Positions 17,764 to 25,389 of a stretch of DNA of 45,825 nt are shown here, one piece after another (position 1 is the first letter of the stretch; each line of letters starts with the position of its first letter). The position numbers and the translations under genes are program-made. Origin of the DNA: Phenylobacterium parvum (lineage in GTDB: Bacteria > Pseudomonadota > Alphaproteobacteria > Caulobacterales > Caulobacteraceae); contig JAPOKE010000006.1 of assembly GCA_029977805.1 (NCBI GenBank), positions 1 to 45,825 of the forward strand. Reading direction: 5' to 3'. A model generated the notes under the pieces. The model was not told where the DNA came from, ran no database searches, and saw only the letters and a list, made by a program, of their open reading frames with translations.

Positions 17764-18699
17764 ATGTCCGGTTTGATCGACCGGGGGCCCGTTCTTGGCT
17801 CCCGCGATATCCGCCAGGTAATGGCGGTGGCGGAAAAGGGCAGCATCCGGCGCGCCGCCGAGGTCCTCGGCATGACCCAGCCCGGCCTCAGCAAGAACCT
17901 CCGTCTGATCGAGGACCGGCTTGGCGTGGCCCTGTTCCAGCGCTCCACCTCCGGCGTCCGGCTGACCCCGGCGGGGGCCATGCTCGTGGAGCGGGGGCGG
18001 CAGGTCCTCCTCGACCTTTCGGCCATCGAGCGTGACATCGAGGAAGCCTCTCGCGGCGAGAGTGGCTCTGTGACAGTCGGGCTCGGCCCGGTCATCGCCC
18101 TGGAACTCGCCACCGGCCTGCTCGCCGAGGCGCACCGGCTTCATCCCGGGATCTCGGTGGACGTCGAGGTCAATGACCCGGCAACCCTCCTGGAAATGCT
18201 CAAGACCGGCCGGCTGGACTTCGGTGTCTTCCATGTCGAACCCGGCAGCCTCGGCCCCGAACTCACATCCCGGGAAGTGCTTCGGACCCGGCCCATTGTC
18301 CTCGTAGGATCCCGGCACCCGCTCGCGGGCCGCGACCACGTTGAGCCCAGGGATCTGAGCCGCTACCGCATCACCGCGACCCGGATCTATCCCAGCCTCC
18401 AGCGCTGGCTTGAACAGAAGACCGGCGGTCCGCTCAAGCCGGCCCTCCTTGGGTCTGACTTCTTCCAGATCGGCGAGCTCCTGCAGCAGACGGATGCCTA
18501 TACCGTCGCCTCCACCGGCATCCTCCAGCGCCTCCAGCGCTTTTTTCCCCTGGTGCAGCTCAGGATGGACGGGCTCGACTTCGAGCACGTCGCCCAGTGC
18601 GTCCAGGCCTCGAGCCGGCCTCTCTCCACCGCCGGCCAGCGCATCCTGAAGCTGACGACCCGCCTGCTCGACCAGAGCTGGCGCGACCCTCAATCCTAG
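17764..18699 (+). CDS. LysR-family transcriptional regulator
   Basis: A 311-residue LysR-type regulator. The winged helix-turn-helix is at about residues 13-72 (KGSIRRAAEVLGMTQPGLSKNLR as helix pair, then LGVALFQRSTSGVRLTPAG), followed by a periplasmic-binding-like effector domain. The ATG at 17764 has GGGAGGT six to twelve bases upstream; an earlier ATG at 17716 lacks one. It lies 121 bases before a sulfatase gene on the same strand, with two T-N11-A boxes in the gap, so the sulfatase is its likely target. The inducer is not known; a sulfated compound or its product is an inference. Confidence 0.93.
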   Translation: MSGLIDRGPVLGSRDIRQVMAVAEKGSIRRAAEVLGMTQPGLSKNLRLIEDRLGVALFQRSTSGVRLTPAGAMLVERGRQVLLDLSAIERDIEEASRGESGSVTVGLGPVIALELATGLLAEAHRLHPGISVDVEVNDPATLLEMLKTGRLDFGVFHVEPGSLGPELTSREVLRTRPIVLVGSRHPLAGRDHVEPRDLSRYRITATRIYPSLQRWLEQKTGGPLKPALLGSDFFQIGELLQQTDAYTVASTGILQRLQRFFPLVQLRMDGLDFEHVAQCVQASSRPLSTAGQRILKLTTRLLDQSWRDPQS

Positions 18700-18701
18700 G
18701 G

Positions 18702-18715
18702 TTATGCCGGTCTAA
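18702..18715 (+). promoter_or_regulatory. possible LysR box 1 (T-N11-A)
   Basis: TTATGCCGGTCTAA has the T-N11-A pattern with TTA/TAA ends, flanked by GGTT on the left and AACC on the right at slightly unequal distance. It starts three bases after the regulator's stop. Weaker than box 2. Confidence 0.35.
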
Positions 18716-18762
18716 GCAACCGCCGGCTATCGGCCCCCGGACCAGCTTCCTACGCTTTCTCC

Positions 18763-18781
18763 CAATGGAATTGGTCCATTG
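18763..18781 (+). promoter_or_regulatory. probable LysR box 2 upstream of the sulfatase
   Basis: A perfect dyad CAATGG-N7-CCATTG, which contains a T-N11-A box (T18766, A18778), the classical binding pattern of LysR regulators. It lies 39 bases before the sulfatase ATG and 64 bases, centre to centre, from the weaker box. The closeness to the start codon suggests it overlaps or follows the transcription start. Confidence 0.6.
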
Positions 18782-18820
18782 CGGCCCTTCTGGAGCCGCA
18801 GGCGAGGGAGAAGCATCACC

Positions 18821-20326
18821 ATGCCCAACGGCAAGCCGAACATCCTGATCATGTGGGGCGACGACATCGGTCAGTCGAACCTTTCGATCTTCACCAAGGG
18901 GATGATGGGATACCGCACCCCCAACATCGACCGCGTCGCCGAAGAGGGGATGCTGTTCACCGACTACTACGCCGAGCAGAGCTGCACCGCCGGCCGCGCC
19001 TCCTTCATCACCGGCCAGTGCGGCCTCCGCACGGGCCTGACCAAGGTGGGCCTGCCGGGCGCCGAGCTGGGCATGCGGGCCGAGGATCCCACCATCGCCC
19101 GGGTCATGAAGGGCCAGGGCTACGCCACGGGCCAGTTCGGCAAGAACCACCTGGGCGACCGTGACTCCCACCTGCCGACCCAGCACGGCTTCGACGAGTT
19201 CTTCGGCAACCTCTACCACCTCAACGCCGAGGAAGAGCCCGAGCTGCGGGACTACCCGAACCCGGTCGACTTCCCGAACTTCAAGTCCAACTTCGGCCCC
19301 CGCGGCGTCCTGCACTGCAAGGCCGACGGCAAGGGCGGCCAGACCATCGTCAACACCGGTCCGCTGACCAAGAAGCGGATGGAGACCATCGACGACGAGG
19401 TCCTCGAGAAGACCGTCGACTTCATCAAGCGGCACAACGACGCCGGGGTGCCCTTCTTCGTGTGGTTCAACACCACCCACATGCACTTCCGCACGCACGC
19501 CAAGCCGGAAAGCCTCGGCCAGTCGGGTCGCTGGCAGTCCGAGTACCACGACGTCATGATCGACCACGACAAGGCGATCGGCGTCCTCCTCGACCTGCTC
19601 GACGAGCTCGGCATCGCCGACGACACCTTCGTCATGTACTCGACCGACAACGGCCCGCACTGCAACAGCTGGCCTGACGCGGGCACTACGCCCTTCCGCA
19701 GCGAGAAGAACACCAACTGGGAAGGCGCCTACCGCGTGCCGGCGATGATCCGCTGGCCGGGGAAGATCAAGGCGGGTTCCGTCTCCAACGACATCGTCTC
19801 CCACCTCGACTGGCTGCCGACCCTGGCCGCCATCGCCGGCGAGCCGAACGTCAAGGAAAAGCTGCTCAAGGGCACGAAGATCGACGGTCACGACTACAAG
19901 GTGCACCTCGACGGCTACAACCTGCTCGACTACCTGACGGGCAAGGAAGAGAAGTGCCCCCGGATCGGCTTCCTGTACTTCACCGATGACGGCGAACTGT
20001 CCGGCCTCCGCTACGACAACTGGAAGGTCGTGTTCATGGAGCAGCGGTGCCCCGGGACCTGCATGATCTGGTCGGAGCCCCTGGTGACCCTGCGGACCCC
20101 GAAGATCTTCAATCTCCGGACCGACCCCTACGAGCACGCCGACATCACCTGCAACAGCTACTGGGACTGGATGTTCGACCACGTCTACCTGCTGGTCCCG
20201 GCGCAGTCGCTGGTCGCCCAGTTCCTGTCCTCGTTCAAGGAGTTCCCGCCCCGCCAGAAGGCGGCGAGCTTCAACCTGGACAGCGTCATGGAGAAGATGT
20301 TCCAGGGCGCGTCGGGCGGCGCCTGA
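18821..20326 (+). CDS. arylsulfatase (type I, formylglycine-dependent)
   Basis: A 501-residue sulfatase that hydrolyses sulfate esters. The residue to be converted to formylglycine is Cys55 in SCTAGRASFITG (C-x-A-x-R variant of the signature). Metal ligands are visible as Asp14-Asp15 in MWGDDIG and in STDNGPHCN; FGKNHLGD supplies the active-site lysine. There is no signal peptide, so the enzyme is cytoplasmic and its substrate must be imported. ATG 18821 is preferred over 18779 because GAGGGAGAAG precedes it. The activating enzyme is encoded at 22886-23854. The substrate class cannot be read from sequence. Confidence 0.92.
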   Translation: MPNGKPNILIMWGDDIGQSNLSIFTKGMMGYRTPNIDRVAEEGMLFTDYYAEQSCTAGRASFITGQCGLRTGLTKVGLPGAELGMRAEDPTIARVMKGQGYATGQFGKNHLGDRDSHLPTQHGFDEFFGNLYHLNAEEEPELRDYPNPVDFPNFKSNFGPRGVLHCKADGKGGQTIVNTGPLTKKRMETIDDEVLEKTVDFIKRHNDAGVPFFVWFNTTHMHFRTHAKPESLGQSGRWQSEYHDVMIDHDKAIGVLLDLLDELGIADDTFVMYSTDNGPHCNSWPDAGTTPFRSEKNTNWEGAYRVPAMIRWPGKIKAGSVSNDIVSHLDWLPTLAAIAGEPNVKEKLLKGTKIDGHDYKVHLDGYNLLDYLTGKEEKCPRIGFLYFTDDGELSGLRYDNWKVVFMEQRCPGTCMIWSEPLVTLRTPKIFNLRTDPYEHADITCNSYWDWMFDHVYLLVPAQSLVAQFLSSFKEFPPRQKAASFNLDSVMEKMFQGASGGA

Positions 20327-20335
20327 TTGACCTGA

Positions 20336-20367
20336 CCCCCGGATCCGTGACCGGATCCGGGGGTTTT
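20336..20367 (+). terminator. intrinsic terminator after the sulfatase
   Basis: A perfect 12-base-pair stem CCCCCGGATCCG/CGGATCCGGGGG with loop TGAC, followed by TTTT, nine bases after the sulfatase stop. It should uncouple the next gene (start 20384), whose own promoter is not evident in the 16 remaining bases, so partial read-through is likely. Confidence 0.9.
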
Positions 20368-20383
20368 CCTGTCCCGGGAGCCG

Positions 20384-21244
20384 ATGATGCTGACCCCGTC
20401 CCTGATCAAGTTCGTCGCGATCTCCAGCGTGTTCCTGCTGGTGGTCTCGATCGGCCTCCAGGCGCGGGTCGGCGCCACCCTCCAGGTGCTGTCGGACGCC
20501 GGGGACCGCCGGAAGCTCTTCGGCGCCCTGCTGGCCATGTTCGTCGGCGTGCCGGCCCTGGCCTTCCTTGTGGTCCGGTTGGGCGACCTGCAGGGCCCGG
20601 CCGCCGCGGCCCTCCTGGCCGCCTCCATCTCGCCGATCGCCCCCTTCCTGCCGCGCAAGCAGTGGAAGGTCGGCGGCGACCCCGAGTGGGTGACCGCCCT
20701 CCAGGTCACCGCGACGATCCTATCGGTGCTCCTTGCGCCCCTTTTCCTCGCCCTCCTGAACCGAGCCTATGGCCTCAGCATCGAGGCCCCGCTGGGCTCG
20801 ATGATGACCGTCCTCGCCCTGACCGTCCTGGCTCCGCTGCTGCTGGGCATGCTGGTCCAGAAGGCGTCCCCGGGCGCCGCCTCGCGCCTTGCGGGCCCAG
20901 TCGGGCTTGTCGGGACGATCCTGCTGGCGGCCGTGGCCATCCTGATCCTGGCCGGCATGTGGCCCGCCCTTGCCGCCGCCGCGACCCAGCTCTTGCCGGC
21001 CAGCCTCGTCCTGTCGATCGGCGGCGTCCTGCTCGGTCACCTGTTGACCGCCGGGCCCCGGTCCGACCGGACGGCCTCGGCCATGGCCAGCGTCTCCCGG
21101 CACCCCGGCGTCGCGATCATCCTGGCCAGCGCCGCCCTGGGCGGGACGCAGGCGGTCCTGGTCGCTGACGTCCTCTTCTTCGTCCTGGTCGCCACCGCCG
21201 TATTGGCCGCCTACCAGTTCCTGCTGCGGCAGGCCGAAGCCTAG
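20384..21244 (+). CDS. membrane transporter, bile acid:Na+ symporter (BASS)-like
   Basis: A 286-residue integral membrane protein with eight to nine predicted hydrophobic segments. It resembles the BASS superfamily in length, topology and details such as the early GLQARVGATLQ turn and the late segment MASVSRHPGVAIILASAALGG, but I see no single decisive motif. BASS carriers import bile acids, steroid sulfates and organic acids with sodium. Its place right behind a cytoplasmic sulfatase suggests uptake of a sulfated substrate or export of the product; this is inference. ATG 20384 or 20387 can be the start. Its stop TAG shares the CTAG palindrome with the stop of the opposite gene. Confidence 0.65.
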   Translation: MMLTPSLIKFVAISSVFLLVVSIGLQARVGATLQVLSDAGDRRKLFGALLAMFVGVPALAFLVVRLGDLQGPAAAALLAASISPIAPFLPRKQWKVGGDPEWVTALQVTATILSVLLAPLFLALLNRAYGLSIEAPLGSMMTVLALTVLAPLLLGMLVQKASPGAASRLAGPVGLVGTILLAAVAILILAGMWPALAAAATQLLPASLVLSIGGVLLGHLLTAGPRSDRTASAMASVSRHPGVAIILASAALGGTQAVLVADVLFFVLVATAVLAAYQFLLRQAEA

Positions 21245-21888
21245 AGCGCCGCCACCGGCAGCCGGAGCAGGAAGACCAGCACCGCCACGCCCAGTCCCCC
21301 GGCGAGCAGCACCATCAGCCGCTTCTGCCGGTCCGACCGCGTCACCGTGGAAATGCCCAGCAGGAAGAGGATCAGGGCGAGGATGACCGTCGAGGCGACG
21401 TAGCGGTCGCCCGTGGCGTTGGCCCTGGCGGCCTGCTTGAAGAGATCGGCGGCCTCCGCGCGCAGGCGGGCGGCGTCGCGGCTCTCGGGATGCTCCGCAC
21501 GGGGCAGGGGGACGGCGGGGCCCTCGCGCACCTGGCCGCGCAGATCCTCGGGATACTGGGCGCGCCAGTCGTCGAACACCTTCCGGAAGCCCGGCGCGAA
21601 CCGTCGTTCGTAGAAGGTCATCAGCTCCCGGTCGTCCTCCGCCGCGGCGGACAGCCAGGCCATGTAGAGGGCGGTGTCCAGCCCTGCCTTCTGCCCCGCC
21701 TGTAGCTCCAGCCGGGCGGCCTCGGTGACCTGGGCGGAGGCGGTCGCGTAGCCGCTGGCCTGGATCCCGCCCCAGAGGGAGGACTGGTAGGTCGCCCAGG
21801 CGGACGCCACCCCCGCTGCGGCCAGCATGACCGAGGCGATGGTGTCGAGCCGGCGGGAACGCACCTGGCTTGAGGTCTCTTCAGCCAT
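21241..21888 (-). CDS. uncharacterised membrane protein, DUF4337-like
   Basis: A 215-residue protein with one hydrophobic segment near the N-terminus (IASVMLAAAGVASAWATY), a soluble middle of ~110 residues, and two more at the C-terminus (YVASTVILALILFLLGI and MVLLAGGLGVAVLVFLL). The layout (ASAWATYQSSLW, later TGDRYVASTVILALILF) recalls DUF4337 proteins, without known function. Start: ATG 21888 (MAEETSS) or ATG 21898-21900. It follows the DUF1622 gene on the same strand, probably in one transcript. Its end overlaps the end of the BASS-like gene. Confidence 0.7.
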   Translation of the reverse strand: MAEETSSQVRSRRLDTIASVMLAAAGVASAWATYQSSLWGGIQASGYATASAQVTEAARLELQAGQKAGLDTALYMAWLSAAAEDDRELMTFYERRFAPGFRKVFDDWRAQYPEDLRGQVREGPAVPLPRAEHPESRDAARLRAEAADLFKQAARANATGDRYVASTVILALILFLLGISTVTRSDRQKRLMVLLAGGLGVAVLVFLLRLPVAAL

Positions 21889-21921
21889 CTCAGGCCCCAT
21901 CCTGTTCAGGCCCCACCAGGC

Positions 21922-22275
21922 TCAGGCCTTGTGCCCGCCCGCGGAGGTGAAGTGCGTGATGTCCCGGGCGAGGAACCAGTTGAGGCCGGTCCGGATGGCC
22001 GCGATGGCGCCCAGCATGCCGATGTCCTGCCAGGTCGGGGCGATGGCCGTCCGGATGATGTCCGCGGCCAGGGCGAACTCCAGGGCCAGCATGATCCAGG
22101 CCGCGAAACCGAGCCAGATTTCCCGCCGGCCGCCGAGGTCGCCCCTCCGGAAGACCACAAGTCCCACCGTCCGGAACAGGGCCTCGCCGGCGCCCCAGGC
22201 CACGATGAGCACCACCGCCGCCTCGGCCAGCAGGCCCAGGGTCTGCGCGGCTTCCTGGAAAAGATGTTCGAGCAT
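21922..22275 (-). CDS. DUF1622 family membrane protein
   Basis: A 117-residue integral membrane protein with about three hydrophobic segments; the part IMLALEFALAADIIRTAIAPTW followed by LGAIAAIRTGLNWFLARDI, shortened here, is the mark of DUF1622. Function unknown. It probably forms a two-gene unit with the downstream protein (gap 33 bases). Its ribosome-binding site lies in a hairpin (22276-22301). Confidence 0.83.
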   Translation of the reverse strand: MLEHLFQEAAQTLGLLAEAAVVLIVAWGAGEALFRTVGLVVFRRGDLGGRREIWLGFAAWIMLALEFALAADIIRTAIAPTWQDIGMLGAIAAIRTGLNWFLARDITHFTSAGGHKA

Positions 22276-22301
22276 GTCGGCCTCCCGGTCTTCGCCGGGA
22301 G
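22276..22301 (-). promoter_or_regulatory. hairpin covering the ribosome-binding site of the DUF1622 gene
   Basis: Minus strand CTCCCGG-N6-CCGGGAG; the 3' arm contains GGGAGG, the Shine-Dalgarno, six bases before the ATG. The seven-pair GC stem could block translation unless opened by ribosomes, heat or a factor. Confidence 0.5.
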
Positions 22302-22422
22302 CTTAACCCAGGCCCGCACGCCCGCTGGCATAAGGAAAGGTTCTAGCCCTATGAAAGAAGGCGACATTCCAGCCCTGCGACAAGGCGCCTATCCTCGACT
22401 GTCGGCAGAAGTGGAGGCAGGC

Positions 22423-22878
22423 ATGGACCGCAAGGAAATGAGCGCGGGCGACCGGATGGCCGCGATGCGAACGGCCCTGAGCTTCCAGCGGACCCGCATG
22501 GCCGCCGACCGCACCCTGATGAGCGTCCAGAGGACCTCCCTTTCGCTCATCGGCTTCGGCTTCACGATCTTCTCGTTCTTCCGTTCCCTGGCGGACAAGA
22601 AGCTGCTCGGCGACGCCCTGCCTTCGGAGGCCCCGGCCCGCTTCGGCCTGACCCTCGTGGCCCTCGGGGTCGCGCTGCTGGCCCTCGGGATCGCCTCGCA
22701 CTTCAACTACATGAAGCAGCTGCGGGGCCAGCGCGACGAGATGATGGTCACCGAGCTCCTGCCCCCGGAGCCGGGCCTGCCGGTGTCCCTGGCCCTCGTG
22801 GCGGCCTTCACACTGCTGGTCTTCGGCCTGTTCGTGATCCTCGGCATCATGGCCCGTTCTGCGCCTTTCGGCGCCTGA
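22423..22878 (+). CDS. DUF202 (YidH-like) membrane protein
   Basis: A 151-residue inner-membrane protein. LSFQRTRMAADRTLMSVQRTSLSLIGFGF-type sequence (RTRMAADRTLMS, then SLIGFGFTIFSFF) marks the DUF202 family, with three hydrophobic segments and a short cytoplasmic N-terminus. Function unknown. ATG 22423 is preferred since GGAGG lies five bases ahead; an in-frame ATG at 22351 would add 24 residues without a clear ribosome-binding site. Its stop is seven bases from the stop of the opposing FGE gene. Confidence 0.85.
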   Translation: MDRKEMSAGDRMAAMRTALSFQRTRMAADRTLMSVQRTSLSLIGFGFTIFSFFRSLADKKLLGDALPSEAPARFGLTLVALGVALLALGIASHFNYMKQLRGQRDEMMVTELLPPEPGLPVSLALVAAFTLLVFGLFVILGIMARSAPFGA

Positions 22879-22885
22879 GCCGTCC

Positions 22886-23854
22886 CTAGGCCCCCGGCCG
22901 GACGATGCACCGGAAGCCAATGTGGCTCATGGAGCTGTCGACCGCCTGGGCGTGGCGCGCGGCGGGCCGGTAGCGTCGGCAGTAGGCGGGGGCGCACATG
23001 TGTGAGCCCCCCTTCAGGACCTTTCGGGGGATGCGGATCCGCGGCAGGGCCGGGTCGAAGCTGTCGGCTTCCTTTCCCCCCAGAGGGTTCTCGGACACGC
23101 AGCACGGGCTCTTGGCGACCTGGCCCGGATTGGCCGTGAACCAGTCCGCCGTCCACTCCCAGACATTGCCGATCATGTCGACCAGCCCGAGGTCGTTCGG
23201 CGGGAAGCTGCCGACCGGCGAAGTGAAGGCGAAGCCGTCCTCGCAGCTGTTGGCGTGGGGGAAGGCGCCCTGGAAGGTGTTGGCCATGTGCACGCCGCCG
23301 GGGACGAGCTCCGTCCCCCAGGCGAACTCGGTCTCGGCCGGCCGGCCGCCCCAGGCGGCGAACTCCCACTCCGCCTCGGTCGGCAGGCTCTTGCCCGCCC
23401 AGGCGGCGTAGGCGGCCACGTCAGCCCAGGCGACATGCACGACAGGGTGGTCCTCGAGGCCGGCGAGGGTGCTGCCGGGGCCGCGGGGCCGCCGCCAGCT
23501 GGCGCCGAAGGTCCAGCTCCACCACTGCGAGACATCGCCCAGGGGGACGGGTCCGCGCGTCGGCGTGAAGACCAGGGAGGCCGCCTTGAGCATGCGCGGA
23601 TCCGCGCCCGGGTAATCCTTGGCCCGCGGCGCGATCTCCGCCGTGGTGACATGACCCGTGGCCCGGACGAAGGCCTCGAACTGGCGGTTGGTGACTGGCG
23701 TCCGGTCCATCCAGAAGCCGTCGACCCGGACCCGCCGGGCGGGCTTTTCCTCGGGGTAGTGGTGGTCGGAGCCCATCGTGAACTCCCCCCCGGGCACCCA
23801 GACCATGTCCTCGCGGAGGTCGGGCGGGGAGGGGGACTCGACGGGACTCTGCAT
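22886..23854 (-). CDS. formylglycine-generating enzyme (sulfatase maturase)
   Basis: A 322-residue SUMF1/FGE-family protein, the copper-dependent oxidase that turns the sulfatase signature cysteine into formylglycine. The full fold is present, from MVWVPGGEFTMGSD through DHPVVHVAWADVAAYAAWAG, SLPTEAEWEFAAWGG and DMIGNVWEWTADWF to GGSHMCAPAYCRRYRPAARH. Cys287 and Cys292 keep the five-residue spacing of the two catalytic cysteines of human SUMF1 (336 and 341), so it should be an active maturase rather than a C-type-lectin-like relative. The sulfatase at 18821 is the obvious client. Its ATG overlaps the porin stop (TGATG), so the two are co-translated. Confidence 0.92.
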   Translation of the reverse strand: MQSPVESPSPPDLREDMVWVPGGEFTMGSDHHYPEEKPARRVRVDGFWMDRTPVTNRQFEAFVRATGHVTTAEIAPRAKDYPGADPRMLKAASLVFTPTRGPVPLGDVSQWWSWTFGASWRRPRGPGSTLAGLEDHPVVHVAWADVAAYAAWAGKSLPTEAEWEFAAWGGRPAETEFAWGTELVPGGVHMANTFQGAFPHANSCEDGFAFTSPVGSFPPNDLGLVDMIGNVWEWTADWFTANPGQVAKSPCCVSENPLGGKEADSFDPALPRIRIPRKVLKGGSHMCAPAYCRRYRPAARHAQAVDSSMSHIGFRCIVRPGA

Positions 23855-25194
23855 CAGTACACCCACTGTATCCGGGTCAGGACGGTGTCGGTCTTCCCGG
23901 TCTTGCCCAGGCGGTCAAGCTCGGTCCGGCCCCAGTCGACCCCGAACTTCCACCGGGTGGTCGCCCACCAGTTCACGCCAAGGTCGACGCGGGTGAAGCG
24001 TCCGCCCTGGACCGGGCCGTCGTCAAGGTCGACGTCGGAGTAACGGACGACCAGCTCCGGCGCGCCCCAGGGCGACTTCGGGATCACCCGGCGGGCATAG
24101 CCCACCTTGCGGTCATAGGGACGGGCCTCGCCGGTCAGGACCCAGGACCCCGTGAGGTACCAGCCGCTGAACCGCGGGTCCCCCTTGGCCTGCGAGTCCA
24201 CCGAGGCCGTGGCGTACTCGCCCAGCAGCGAGAGGCCGCCCCAGCTCACCAGGCCTTCCAGGCCGTAGTGGCGCGCGCCGTCCGCCGGGAACTCGCCCGT
24301 ATCGACGAAGTTCGAGGCCACGTTCGAGCCGGGCCGCCCCTTGTAGCGGATCGAACCGTCGGCGGCGGCGTAGCGATAGGATGCGCCGAGGTGGAGGTAG
24401 CGCCCGTTCGCCGCATCGTCCCAGGCGAGGCCGGACACCCGCGCGAAGTAGTCCGTGCCCCGGTTGGTGCTTGTCCCGACGTCCCAGCCGTCATCGGCGA
24501 ACCCGTAGGAGACATTGACCCGCTTGTCCGGGCCGAGGACGTGCGTGACCCGCACCCCGGTATTGCGCGAGACGAAGAAGGGGCTCAGCACGCGCTCGCT
24601 CTGGGGCAGGTTGGCGGCGTCGCCGACCATCTCGTAGGCGAAGGCCTCCTTGATCTTGCCCACGGCGATCCGGGTGTTCTGGCCGACGGGGAAGGTCAGG
24701 GACATGTCCGTCAGCTGCCAGTTGTCGGTCGGGTCGCTGTCGAAGCCCTTGTACTCGCCGCCGAACTGGTAGTTCACGCGGTAAGAGCCCCCGAAGGAGC
24801 CCAGGACCTGGAGCCGGAAGCCTCGCCATTCGTAGGCGTCCTTCTGGCGGCCCACCTGGGAGACGCTGTCCTCGTCCTGGGAAAAGGACGTCCAGTCGCC
24901 GAGGATGGCTGCGCTGGGCCTCAGGGTGAAGCCCGCCGAAGGCCAGGGTCGGGGCGCGCCCCGCGCCGGCGACAGGTCCGGCACGATGTAGTTCACGGGC
25001 GCGTCCGCCGCGGGCGGGGCCGCCTGCTGGCTGGCGGTCATGATCGGTTCCGAGGAGCTCTCGGTCTCCTGCGCCAGGGCCGGGGCCCCCGCCAGGAGGG
25101 CGGAGATGGCCGTGGCGGCGCCAAGCCAGCCCCTTCCGACCCCGCGGCGGCGGGCGGGCGTCATCGGCCGCAGGTTTCCATCCTCAAGTTCCAT
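23854..25194 (-). CDS. outer-membrane porin, OprO/OprP (phosphate-selective) family
   Basis: A ~446-residue outer-membrane beta-barrel with a signal peptide (RRRGVGRGWLGAATAIS, cleavage after APALA). Alternating patterns such as WRGFRLQVLGSF, YRVNYQFGGEY, VGKIKEAFAYEMVGD and the terminal TDTVLTRIQWVY, ending in an aromatic residue, fit the phosphate-selective porin O/P family. These porins take up oxyanions or anionic organics. Start uncertain: ATG 25194 or ATG 25164, the latter giving the shortest n-region. The last base of its stop is the first of the FGE start, so porin and sulfatase maturase are in one operon; uptake of sulfate esters is an inference from that. Confidence 0.85.
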   Translation of the reverse strand: MELEDGNLRPMTPARRRGVGRGWLGAATAISALLAGAPALAQETESSSEPIMTASQQAAPPAADAPVNYIVPDLSPARGAPRPWPSAGFTLRPSAAILGDWTSFSQDEDSVSQVGRQKDAYEWRGFRLQVLGSFGGSYRVNYQFGGEYKGFDSDPTDNWQLTDMSLTFPVGQNTRIAVGKIKEAFAYEMVGDAANLPQSERVLSPFFVSRNTGVRVTHVLGPDKRVNVSYGFADDGWDVGTSTNRGTDYFARVSGLAWDDAANGRYLHLGASYRYAAADGSIRYKGRPGSNVASNFVDTGEFPADGARHYGLEGLVSWGGLSLLGEYATASVDSQAKGDPRFSGWYLTGSWVLTGEARPYDRKVGYARRVIPKSPWGAPELVVRYSDVDLDDGPVQGGRFTRVDLGVNWWATTRWKFGVDWGRTELDRLGKTGKTDTVLTRIQWVY

Positions 25195-25389
25195 GTCGTC
25201 CCGTCCCGTCGCCACGGCCTGTCTCCTCGCCAACCCGGCGCCTGGGCGCGGCGTCGGGGCCTCCGGAGTCAGGATGGAGCCCCGCCCGGGAAACACTGCC
25301 GGATATCCGACACTCCGCTCACCTGATAGGCCCGCAGGGGTTGTCGCCCGATAACCCCCGGAAGGCGTCCCGGGCGGCCTGCTTTGGAC

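Follow-up and report, generated by a model that had tools for sequence, protein, structure and literature searches.

A conserved gene block in Phenylobacterium parvum joins a cytoplasmic sulfatase, a formylglycine-generating enzyme and a BASS-fold carrier with an Arg-His-Pro motif: a possible route for sulfated organic anions

We analyzed a 45,825-nucleotide stretch of Phenylobacterium parvum DNA (contig JAPOKE010000006.1; hereafter the window) and, within it, a block of genes at 17764..25194 that combines a sulfatase with a formylglycine-generating enzyme (FGE) and a carrier of the BASS/SLC10 fold. The block is genuine: its conservation in related genomes and a control built on the carrier's Pfam family (the SBF control, below) place it beyond a chance neighbourhood. 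We lean, by a modest measure, towards the reading that the block serves to take up a small sulfated organic anion and to desulfate it inside the cell. An O/P-family porin would let the anion across the outer membrane, and the carrier, marked by an Arg-His-Pro (RHP) motif, would move it over the inner membrane by a mechanism that does not use the usual Na+ sites; the FGE would activate the cytoplasmic sulfatase, which would free sulfate and the parent alcohol or phenol. A LysR-type protein may control the sulfatase-BASS unit, and three small proteins (DUF1622, DUF202 and a DUF4337-like protein) may be accessory membrane parts. A first-pass annotation of the same DNA had proposed a self-contained import-and-desulfate module, and the genes it named (LysR regulator, sulfatase, BASS-like carrier, porin, FGE and three membrane proteins) are all present. 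Its import-and-desulfate reading is backed by these genes, their conservation and their linkage; the direction of transport and the substrate, as well as the coupling ion, the regulation and what the three small membrane proteins do, we infer.

Scanning 84,980 species genomes for the FGE, we obtained 306 confirmed stretches. Of these the best 80 loci were kept, and the block is present in five of them (L008, L009, L010, L016 and L081) as far as the contigs reach: L081 includes both flanks of the block, L009 and L016 only trigger factor, L010 only NnrDE, and L008 neither. A complete genome of the same genus (G267, locus L146) has the block with both flanks; L243 is the same contig stretch as L016 and was counted once. 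Gene order is the same in the resulting seven distinct loci (the window and six related genomes), again as far as the contigs reach. The joint occurrence of sulfatase, BASS, porin and FGE, whose absence from related genomes the first-pass annotation gave as grounds for refutation, is found in all seven. The nearest named relatives among the FGE-scan matches listed are Phenylobacterium and Caulobacteraceae assemblies. For every block gene compared, the ratio of nonsynonymous to synonymous substitution rates (dN/dS) is at most 0.36 in all six block pairs; by this measure the block genes are under purifying selection.

In the window the block sits between thiolase/NnrDE genes and the trigger factor/ClpP genes. 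The LysR, sulfatase and BASS genes are on the plus strand, the DUF4337-like and DUF1622 genes on the minus strand, DUF202 on the plus strand, and FGE and the porin on the minus strand. Since the strands alternate, the block must comprise at least four transcription units and is not one operon.

Five other relatives (L011-L015) retain FGE as the only block gene between trigger factor and NnrDE (the L015 contig ends inside NnrDE). None of the five has the porin, BASS, sulfatase, LysR or any of the three membrane genes at this site, and the best-scoring matches to the sulfatase in these genomes are 29-31% identical (up to 38% for shorter pieces). An unrooted tree built from four housekeeping proteins, in which several loci have much missing data, separates the block genomes {window, L146} from {L009, L010, L016, L081}, with FGE-only genomes falling between them (support of the two separating nodes 74 and 86). 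The other block genes thus come and go together while FGE stays, which speaks for the block as a unit and means that FGE has other work. The source genome (a 2.29 Mb draft, 85.8% complete) has a second FGE, adjoining another sulfatase, and a Cys-type motif in five of its six other sulfatases (the sixth has only a pattern match far downstream, which was left uncounted). With FGE persisting alone in five relatives and these further enzymes in the genome, "self-contained" is too strong a label. We also rejected an FGE dedicated to the block, as FGE is kept in block-less relatives and the genome has other Cys-type sulfatases.

The first-pass annotation placed the BASS gene in one pathway with the sulfatase and FGE, and this type of BASS is indeed linked to sulfatase or FGE genes well beyond the block loci. 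Searching 299 Caulobacteraceae genomes with a profile (A1) made from eight BASS proteins, we found at least 29 loci of the RHP type (RHP-BASS) in at least 21 genomes, and a class-wide search found the type in at least four of 289 genomes, source genome included; these are lower bounds because at most eight candidates per genome were scored in both searches. Within 9 kb, 17 of the 29 RHP-BASS loci have a sulfatase or FGE, versus one of 33 control loci (Fisher p = 1.5e-6); within 3 kb, 12 of the 29 do, versus none of the 33. Leaving out the five loci used to build the profile, 12 of 24 are linked (p = 4e-5); if one block relative is removed as well, 11 of 23 (p = 8e-5). The control consists of all 33 PF01758 matches outside the RHP list in 17 of the RHP-BASS-bearing genomes, mostly other subfamilies of the superfamily by motif (just L265 and L266 resemble canonical BASS, and five are partial matches). 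In one count the control distances were measured from the middle of the stretch and are therefore approximate; in the other the whole stretch was counted. The loci are not independent, since both linked and unlinked ones include some that are nearly identical on the tree; L259 counts as linked only through a sulfatase at 8.3 kb, and the sulfatase linked to L261 is less related and has a signal-like N-terminus.

With L259 treated as unlinked, linkage requires six changes on the BASS tree versus a mean of 9.8 after shuffling (a fraction of 0.013 of 2000 shuffles gave six or fewer). Linkage clusters by clade, yet it is found in several separate clades of the BASS tree, some weakly supported. The clearest case outside the block is L248, where FGE (in two frames), BASS, sulfatase and DUF202 share a strand and are ordered differently, and a DUF4337-like gene lies on the opposite strand; sulfatase and BASS are also neighbours in L242 and L250.

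The carrier gene (20384..21244, plus strand) encodes a protein that matches PF01758 with E 8e-10 (39.1 bits, cut-off 24.3). Its AlphaFold model has a predicted local distance difference test score (pLDDT) of 83, and 27 ASBT/NTCP structures head the Foldseek list; helices of the model break around 82-89 and 238-240. The motif for which we named the subfamily is nearly invariant: Arg at window protein position 239 in 29 of 29 members, His240 in 27 and Pro241 in 28. In an alignment with the Yersinia carrier, R239 falls at the Gln and A235 at the Glu of TM9 that we take to bind Na+ in that protein. The Glu position holds A, S, T or M and the Gln position holds Arg in all 29 members, none of which thus has the Glu or Gln expected of a Na+-coupled BASS symporter at these positions. 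Judged by the model and this alignment, the carrier has a BASS fold without the usual Na+-site residues; Na+ sites are conserved in many BASS members, according to the available part of PMC10645422.

The suggestion of steroid or bile-acid sulfates in the first-pass annotation arose because of the BASS name. Na+-driven uptake of such sulfates was dropped as a candidate and finds no support in a family whose ligand Glu/Gln positions are replaced throughout; the replacements argue against a simple transfer from SOAT/SLC10A6, described in the accessible text of PMC10298714 as a human steroid-sulfate carrier. A KshA_C match was found in none of the seven distinct block genomes, for which the control is weak (one of 14 genomes, below cut-off). 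At one RHP-BASS locus without a sulfatase (L253:8999-13069) the carrier adjoins an ABC transporter whose binding protein belongs to the urea type (TIGR03427), not the sulfonate type. Given this neighbour, the subfamily may have other substrates too.

The sulfatase (18821..20326, plus strand, 501 a.a.) matches PF00884 with E 5e-48 (164.5 bits, cut-off 25); we place its start at the ATG at 18821, and the open reading frame list starts it from a TTG at 18779. The CTAGR site reported in the first pass is intact, at residue 55, and it is accompanied by DD (14-15), GKNHLG (107) and DNGPH (276), all of which align with arylsulfatase A and presumably serve as metal and substrate motifs. The closest PDB match is the arylsulfatase 7aj0 (E 1e-52). 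Family and motifs together identify it, at the level of sequence, as a type S1 formylglycine sulfatase, although it scores far under the cut-offs of curated choline-sulfatase and arylsulfatase models. Choline sulfatase itself was rejected: the enzyme reaches 81.5 bits with a cut-off of 433, and the choline sulfate regulator model gives 50 versus 325. We saw no signal or transmembrane-like stretch in the sulfatase sequence, so its substrate must enter the cell.

Across the six block pairs the sulfatase dN/dS is 0.04-0.15, the lowest of the block in five pairs (0.04-0.09 there). The protein is 95-98% identical between the window and L081, L010 and L146, at a synonymous divergence (dS) of 0.32-0.37. 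For window versus L081, dS is 0.37 for the sulfatase, 0.66 for trigger factor and 0.82-1.41 for the other block genes; for window versus L146, the values are 0.32, 0.34 and 0.56-0.97. Among these comparisons the sulfatase dS is always lower than that of the other block genes (0.56-1.42) and sometimes, but not in every case, lower than that of trigger factor (0.34-0.66), possibly due to exchange of the gene among relatives or to strong codon constraint. Upstream lies the LysR-type regulator gene (17764..18699, plus strand; PF00126 and PF03466). Three other block loci have contigs long enough to include this position (L010, L081 and L146), and the gene is present there in each. It probably heads a LysR-sulfatase-BASS unit.

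FGE (22886..23854, minus strand) matches PF03781 with E 8e-80 (268.7 bits). Compared with PDB proteins, it hits FGE/SUMF1 structures at E 3e-66 to 3e-64, followed by PorK (2e-24), PvdO (5e-16) and EgtB (2e-13), so by similarity it is closest to true FGEs of the aerobic kind, not to EgtB, PvdO or GldK. Both cysteines named by the first-pass annotation are there, Cys287 and Cys292 in GGSHMCAPAYC, which we take to be the copper-binding catalytic pair. In two loci an FGE adjoining BASS and sulfatase is split over two frames (L146:7514-8478 and L248:7893-8840), in L146 within a complete single-contig genome; the split could reflect a faulty assembly or decay of the gene, and another FGE may serve in its stead in these genomes.

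The porin gene (23854..25194, minus strand) encodes an O/P-family protein with a signal-peptide-like N-terminus (PF07396 E 3e-28; 99.7 bits, cut-off 20.9). Its reading frame is open over 23854-25296, and the ATG that gives the end at 25194, the one assigned earlier, precedes the signal-peptide-like stretch. The tight porin-FGE pairing described in the first pass holds up: the porin stop and the FGE start overlap as TGATG in all seven distinct block loci, window included. Within Caulobacteraceae the pair looks specific to the block clade. We examined 60 further Caulobacteraceae FGE loci (the top 66 matches less six already examined, with about 9 kb on each side of FGE and less at contig ends), and a model built from block porins only finds the block-type porin in none of them; another porin type near FGE could be missed by such a model.

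The three small membrane proteins are a DUF4337-like protein (21241..21900, minus strand; PF14235 E 0.0024, below cut-off; two transmembrane-like segments), a 117-a.a. DUF1622 protein (21922..22275, minus strand; PF07784 E 1e-21) and a DUF202 protein encoded divergently from it (22351..22878, plus strand; PF02656 E 1e-12). The DUF4337-like gene is kept in the block, and its counterpart near FGE in L248 matches the block-derived model and no Pfam family. DUF1622, for which the best match of a fold search is only E 0.44, recurs near FGE, mostly with a sulfatase, in Caulobacteraceae, Bosea, Pseudoxanthomonas and Nodosilinea. DUF202 recurs with FGE and sulfatase in seven loci (L018, L048, L057, L080, L197, L201 and L248), three of which have DUF1622 as well: those of Bosea (L018), Pseudoxanthomonas (L080) and Nodosilinea (L057), a cyanobacterium. 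BASS genes are found near FGE in four cyanobacteria (L076, L083, L085 and L086), with a sulfatase seen in the first three; in Xenophilus (L046) BASS is about 8 kb from FGE, with no sulfatase seen in the stretch. Among the 80 best FGE-scan loci, BASS is found in 10, DUF1622 in eight and DUF202 in nine, and most have none; among the 60 further Caulobacteraceae loci a sulfatase (by model) is found in 44, DUF1622 in five, BASS in three and DUF202 in two.

All three BASS-bearing loci of that last set (L175, L190 and L191) also carry DUF1622, DUF4136, DUF2092 and DUF1254, as well as a Gly-rich protein, presumably DUF6515 (Pfam gave no match), and a barrel-like protein without a Pfam match; none of the three has a linked sulfatase, and L147 is alike. 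The DUF4136/DUF2092-type cluster is found with a sulfatase in L151 and L152. This wider cluster (DUF4136, DUF2092, Gly-rich and barrel-like proteins, in part with DUF1254/DUF1214 and HAD) recurs in L147, L151, L152, L175, L190, L191 and L244; it goes with RHP-BASS, mostly with FGE and DUF1622, and partly without a linked sulfatase. Another frequent neighbour of sulfatase/FGE clusters, which is not in the window, is a HAD phosphatase-like protein (PF12710 in L152): its model matches 29 of the 80 best FGE-scan loci, and it is seen in L018, L057, L080, L151, L152, L197, L201, L206 and L244.

Several observations weigh against uptake and desulfation as the role of the block. The carrier is the fastest-evolving block gene in five out of six pairs (dN/dS 0.33-0.36, the highest of the block in the same five pairs where the sulfatase is lowest), and it is 62-65% identical where the sulfatase is 93-98% identical, which is odd for a carrier with a fixed substrate. 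No sulfatase or FGE lies within 9 kb of 12 of the 29 RHP-BASS loci, and both DUF1622 and BASS are missing from 55 of the 60 other Caulobacteraceae FGE loci. Four genomes of the same genus (G324, G474, G494 and G519) have a BASS-DUF1622-FGE cluster without a linked sulfatase, and a relative of the window sulfatase (72-76% identical) lies elsewhere in them without block partners. The carrier might instead work outward, exporting the desulfated alcohol, phenol or organic acid while the ester enters otherwise; the fast evolution of BASS and the replacement of residues aligned with the uptake-driving Na+ ligands of ASBT/NTCP would fit such a role. We consider it unlikely, as a porin and a cytoplasmic sulfatase fit uptake and, apart from BASS, we recognised no member of a known inner-membrane transporter family among the block genes.

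The genes could also form a membrane or envelope system, in which the substrate of an FGE-activated hydrolase is not a nutrient but an envelope component or an ester of phosphate or phosphonate. This explanation builds on DUF1622, DUF202 and the DUF4337-like protein (elsewhere on DUF4136, DUF2092 and further unassigned proteins), and several uncharacterised proteins of the wider cluster look exported; S1-fold enzymes, moreover, can be promiscuous between sulfate and phosphate esters. However, FGE, the Cys-type motif and the closest PDB relatives are of the sulfatase type and the sulfatase has no signal sequence, which makes an envelope role improbable. Chance neighbours, i.e. unrelated genes found together only through the close kinship of the relatives, are a very improbable explanation, even though the strands are mixed, FGE is kept alone in five relatives and the porin is seen with FGE only in the block clade: this BASS type is linked to sulfatase or FGE much more often than the SBF control, in several clades and also in a different gene arrangement. 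Conservation and this control led us to reject a chance block; chance is largely refuted for BASS, FGE, the sulfatase, DUF1622 and DUF202, and may yet apply to the porin and LysR. Beyond uptake and desulfation by this block, we put forward, as a speculative proposal that is rather doubtful at present, that Arg-type BASS proteins are a Na+-independent carrier class reserved for sulfate esters, in which Arg at Na2 replaces the cation. In Pseudomonadota their genes would accompany those of FGE-activated cytoplasmic sulfatases and of DUF1622/DUF202; in Cyanobacteriota a distant BASS that retains this Arg would lie next to FGE and sulfatase genes.

To our knowledge, little is known about how bacteria bring sulfate esters to cytoplasmic sulfatases, and the block points to a scarcely studied path by which sulfated compounds may be taken up and desulfated. 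Such esters rank among the main organic sulfur forms in soils, as stated in the available part of PMC4267179. RHP-BASS is a statistically supported candidate carrier subfamily with one motif open to testing, and the unstudied membrane families DUF1622 (named in a single paper of the literature searched), DUF202 and DUF4337-like are tied to sulfatase activation. A search of titles and beginnings of abstracts, with most subscription papers outside it, returned no description of a BASS-sulfatase-FGE cluster.

Sulfatase-FGE pairs, BASS carriers and O/P porins are each already known. The sulfatase resembles FGE-activated S1 sulfatases (PF00884) in fold family, CxAxR motif, aligned active-site motifs and a nearby FGE gene, but is cytoplasmic and has no close relative among solved structures. 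The carrier shares with SLC10/BASS proteins (ASBT, NTCP, ASBT_NM and, presumably, SOAT) the PF01758 family and a predicted fold with broken crossover helices, and differs in its RHP motif, its replaced Na+ ligands and its 14-22% identity to the 27 ASBT/NTCP structures. Choline-O-sulfate clusters presumably also have a LysR gene beside a cytoplasmic sulfatase; the window sulfatase and regulator, however, fall far below both curated models. The acesulfame system of Shinella, as described in the accessible part of PMC11500405, differs in its CxPxR motif, its plasmid location and its FGE genes elsewhere, with BASS and porin not mentioned in that part. By that description, to which our comparison is confined, it is alike in having an FGly-dependent 502-a.a. 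sulfatase beside a LysR-bearing cluster that includes a TauE/SafE-type carrier gene, with FGE encoded in the genome.

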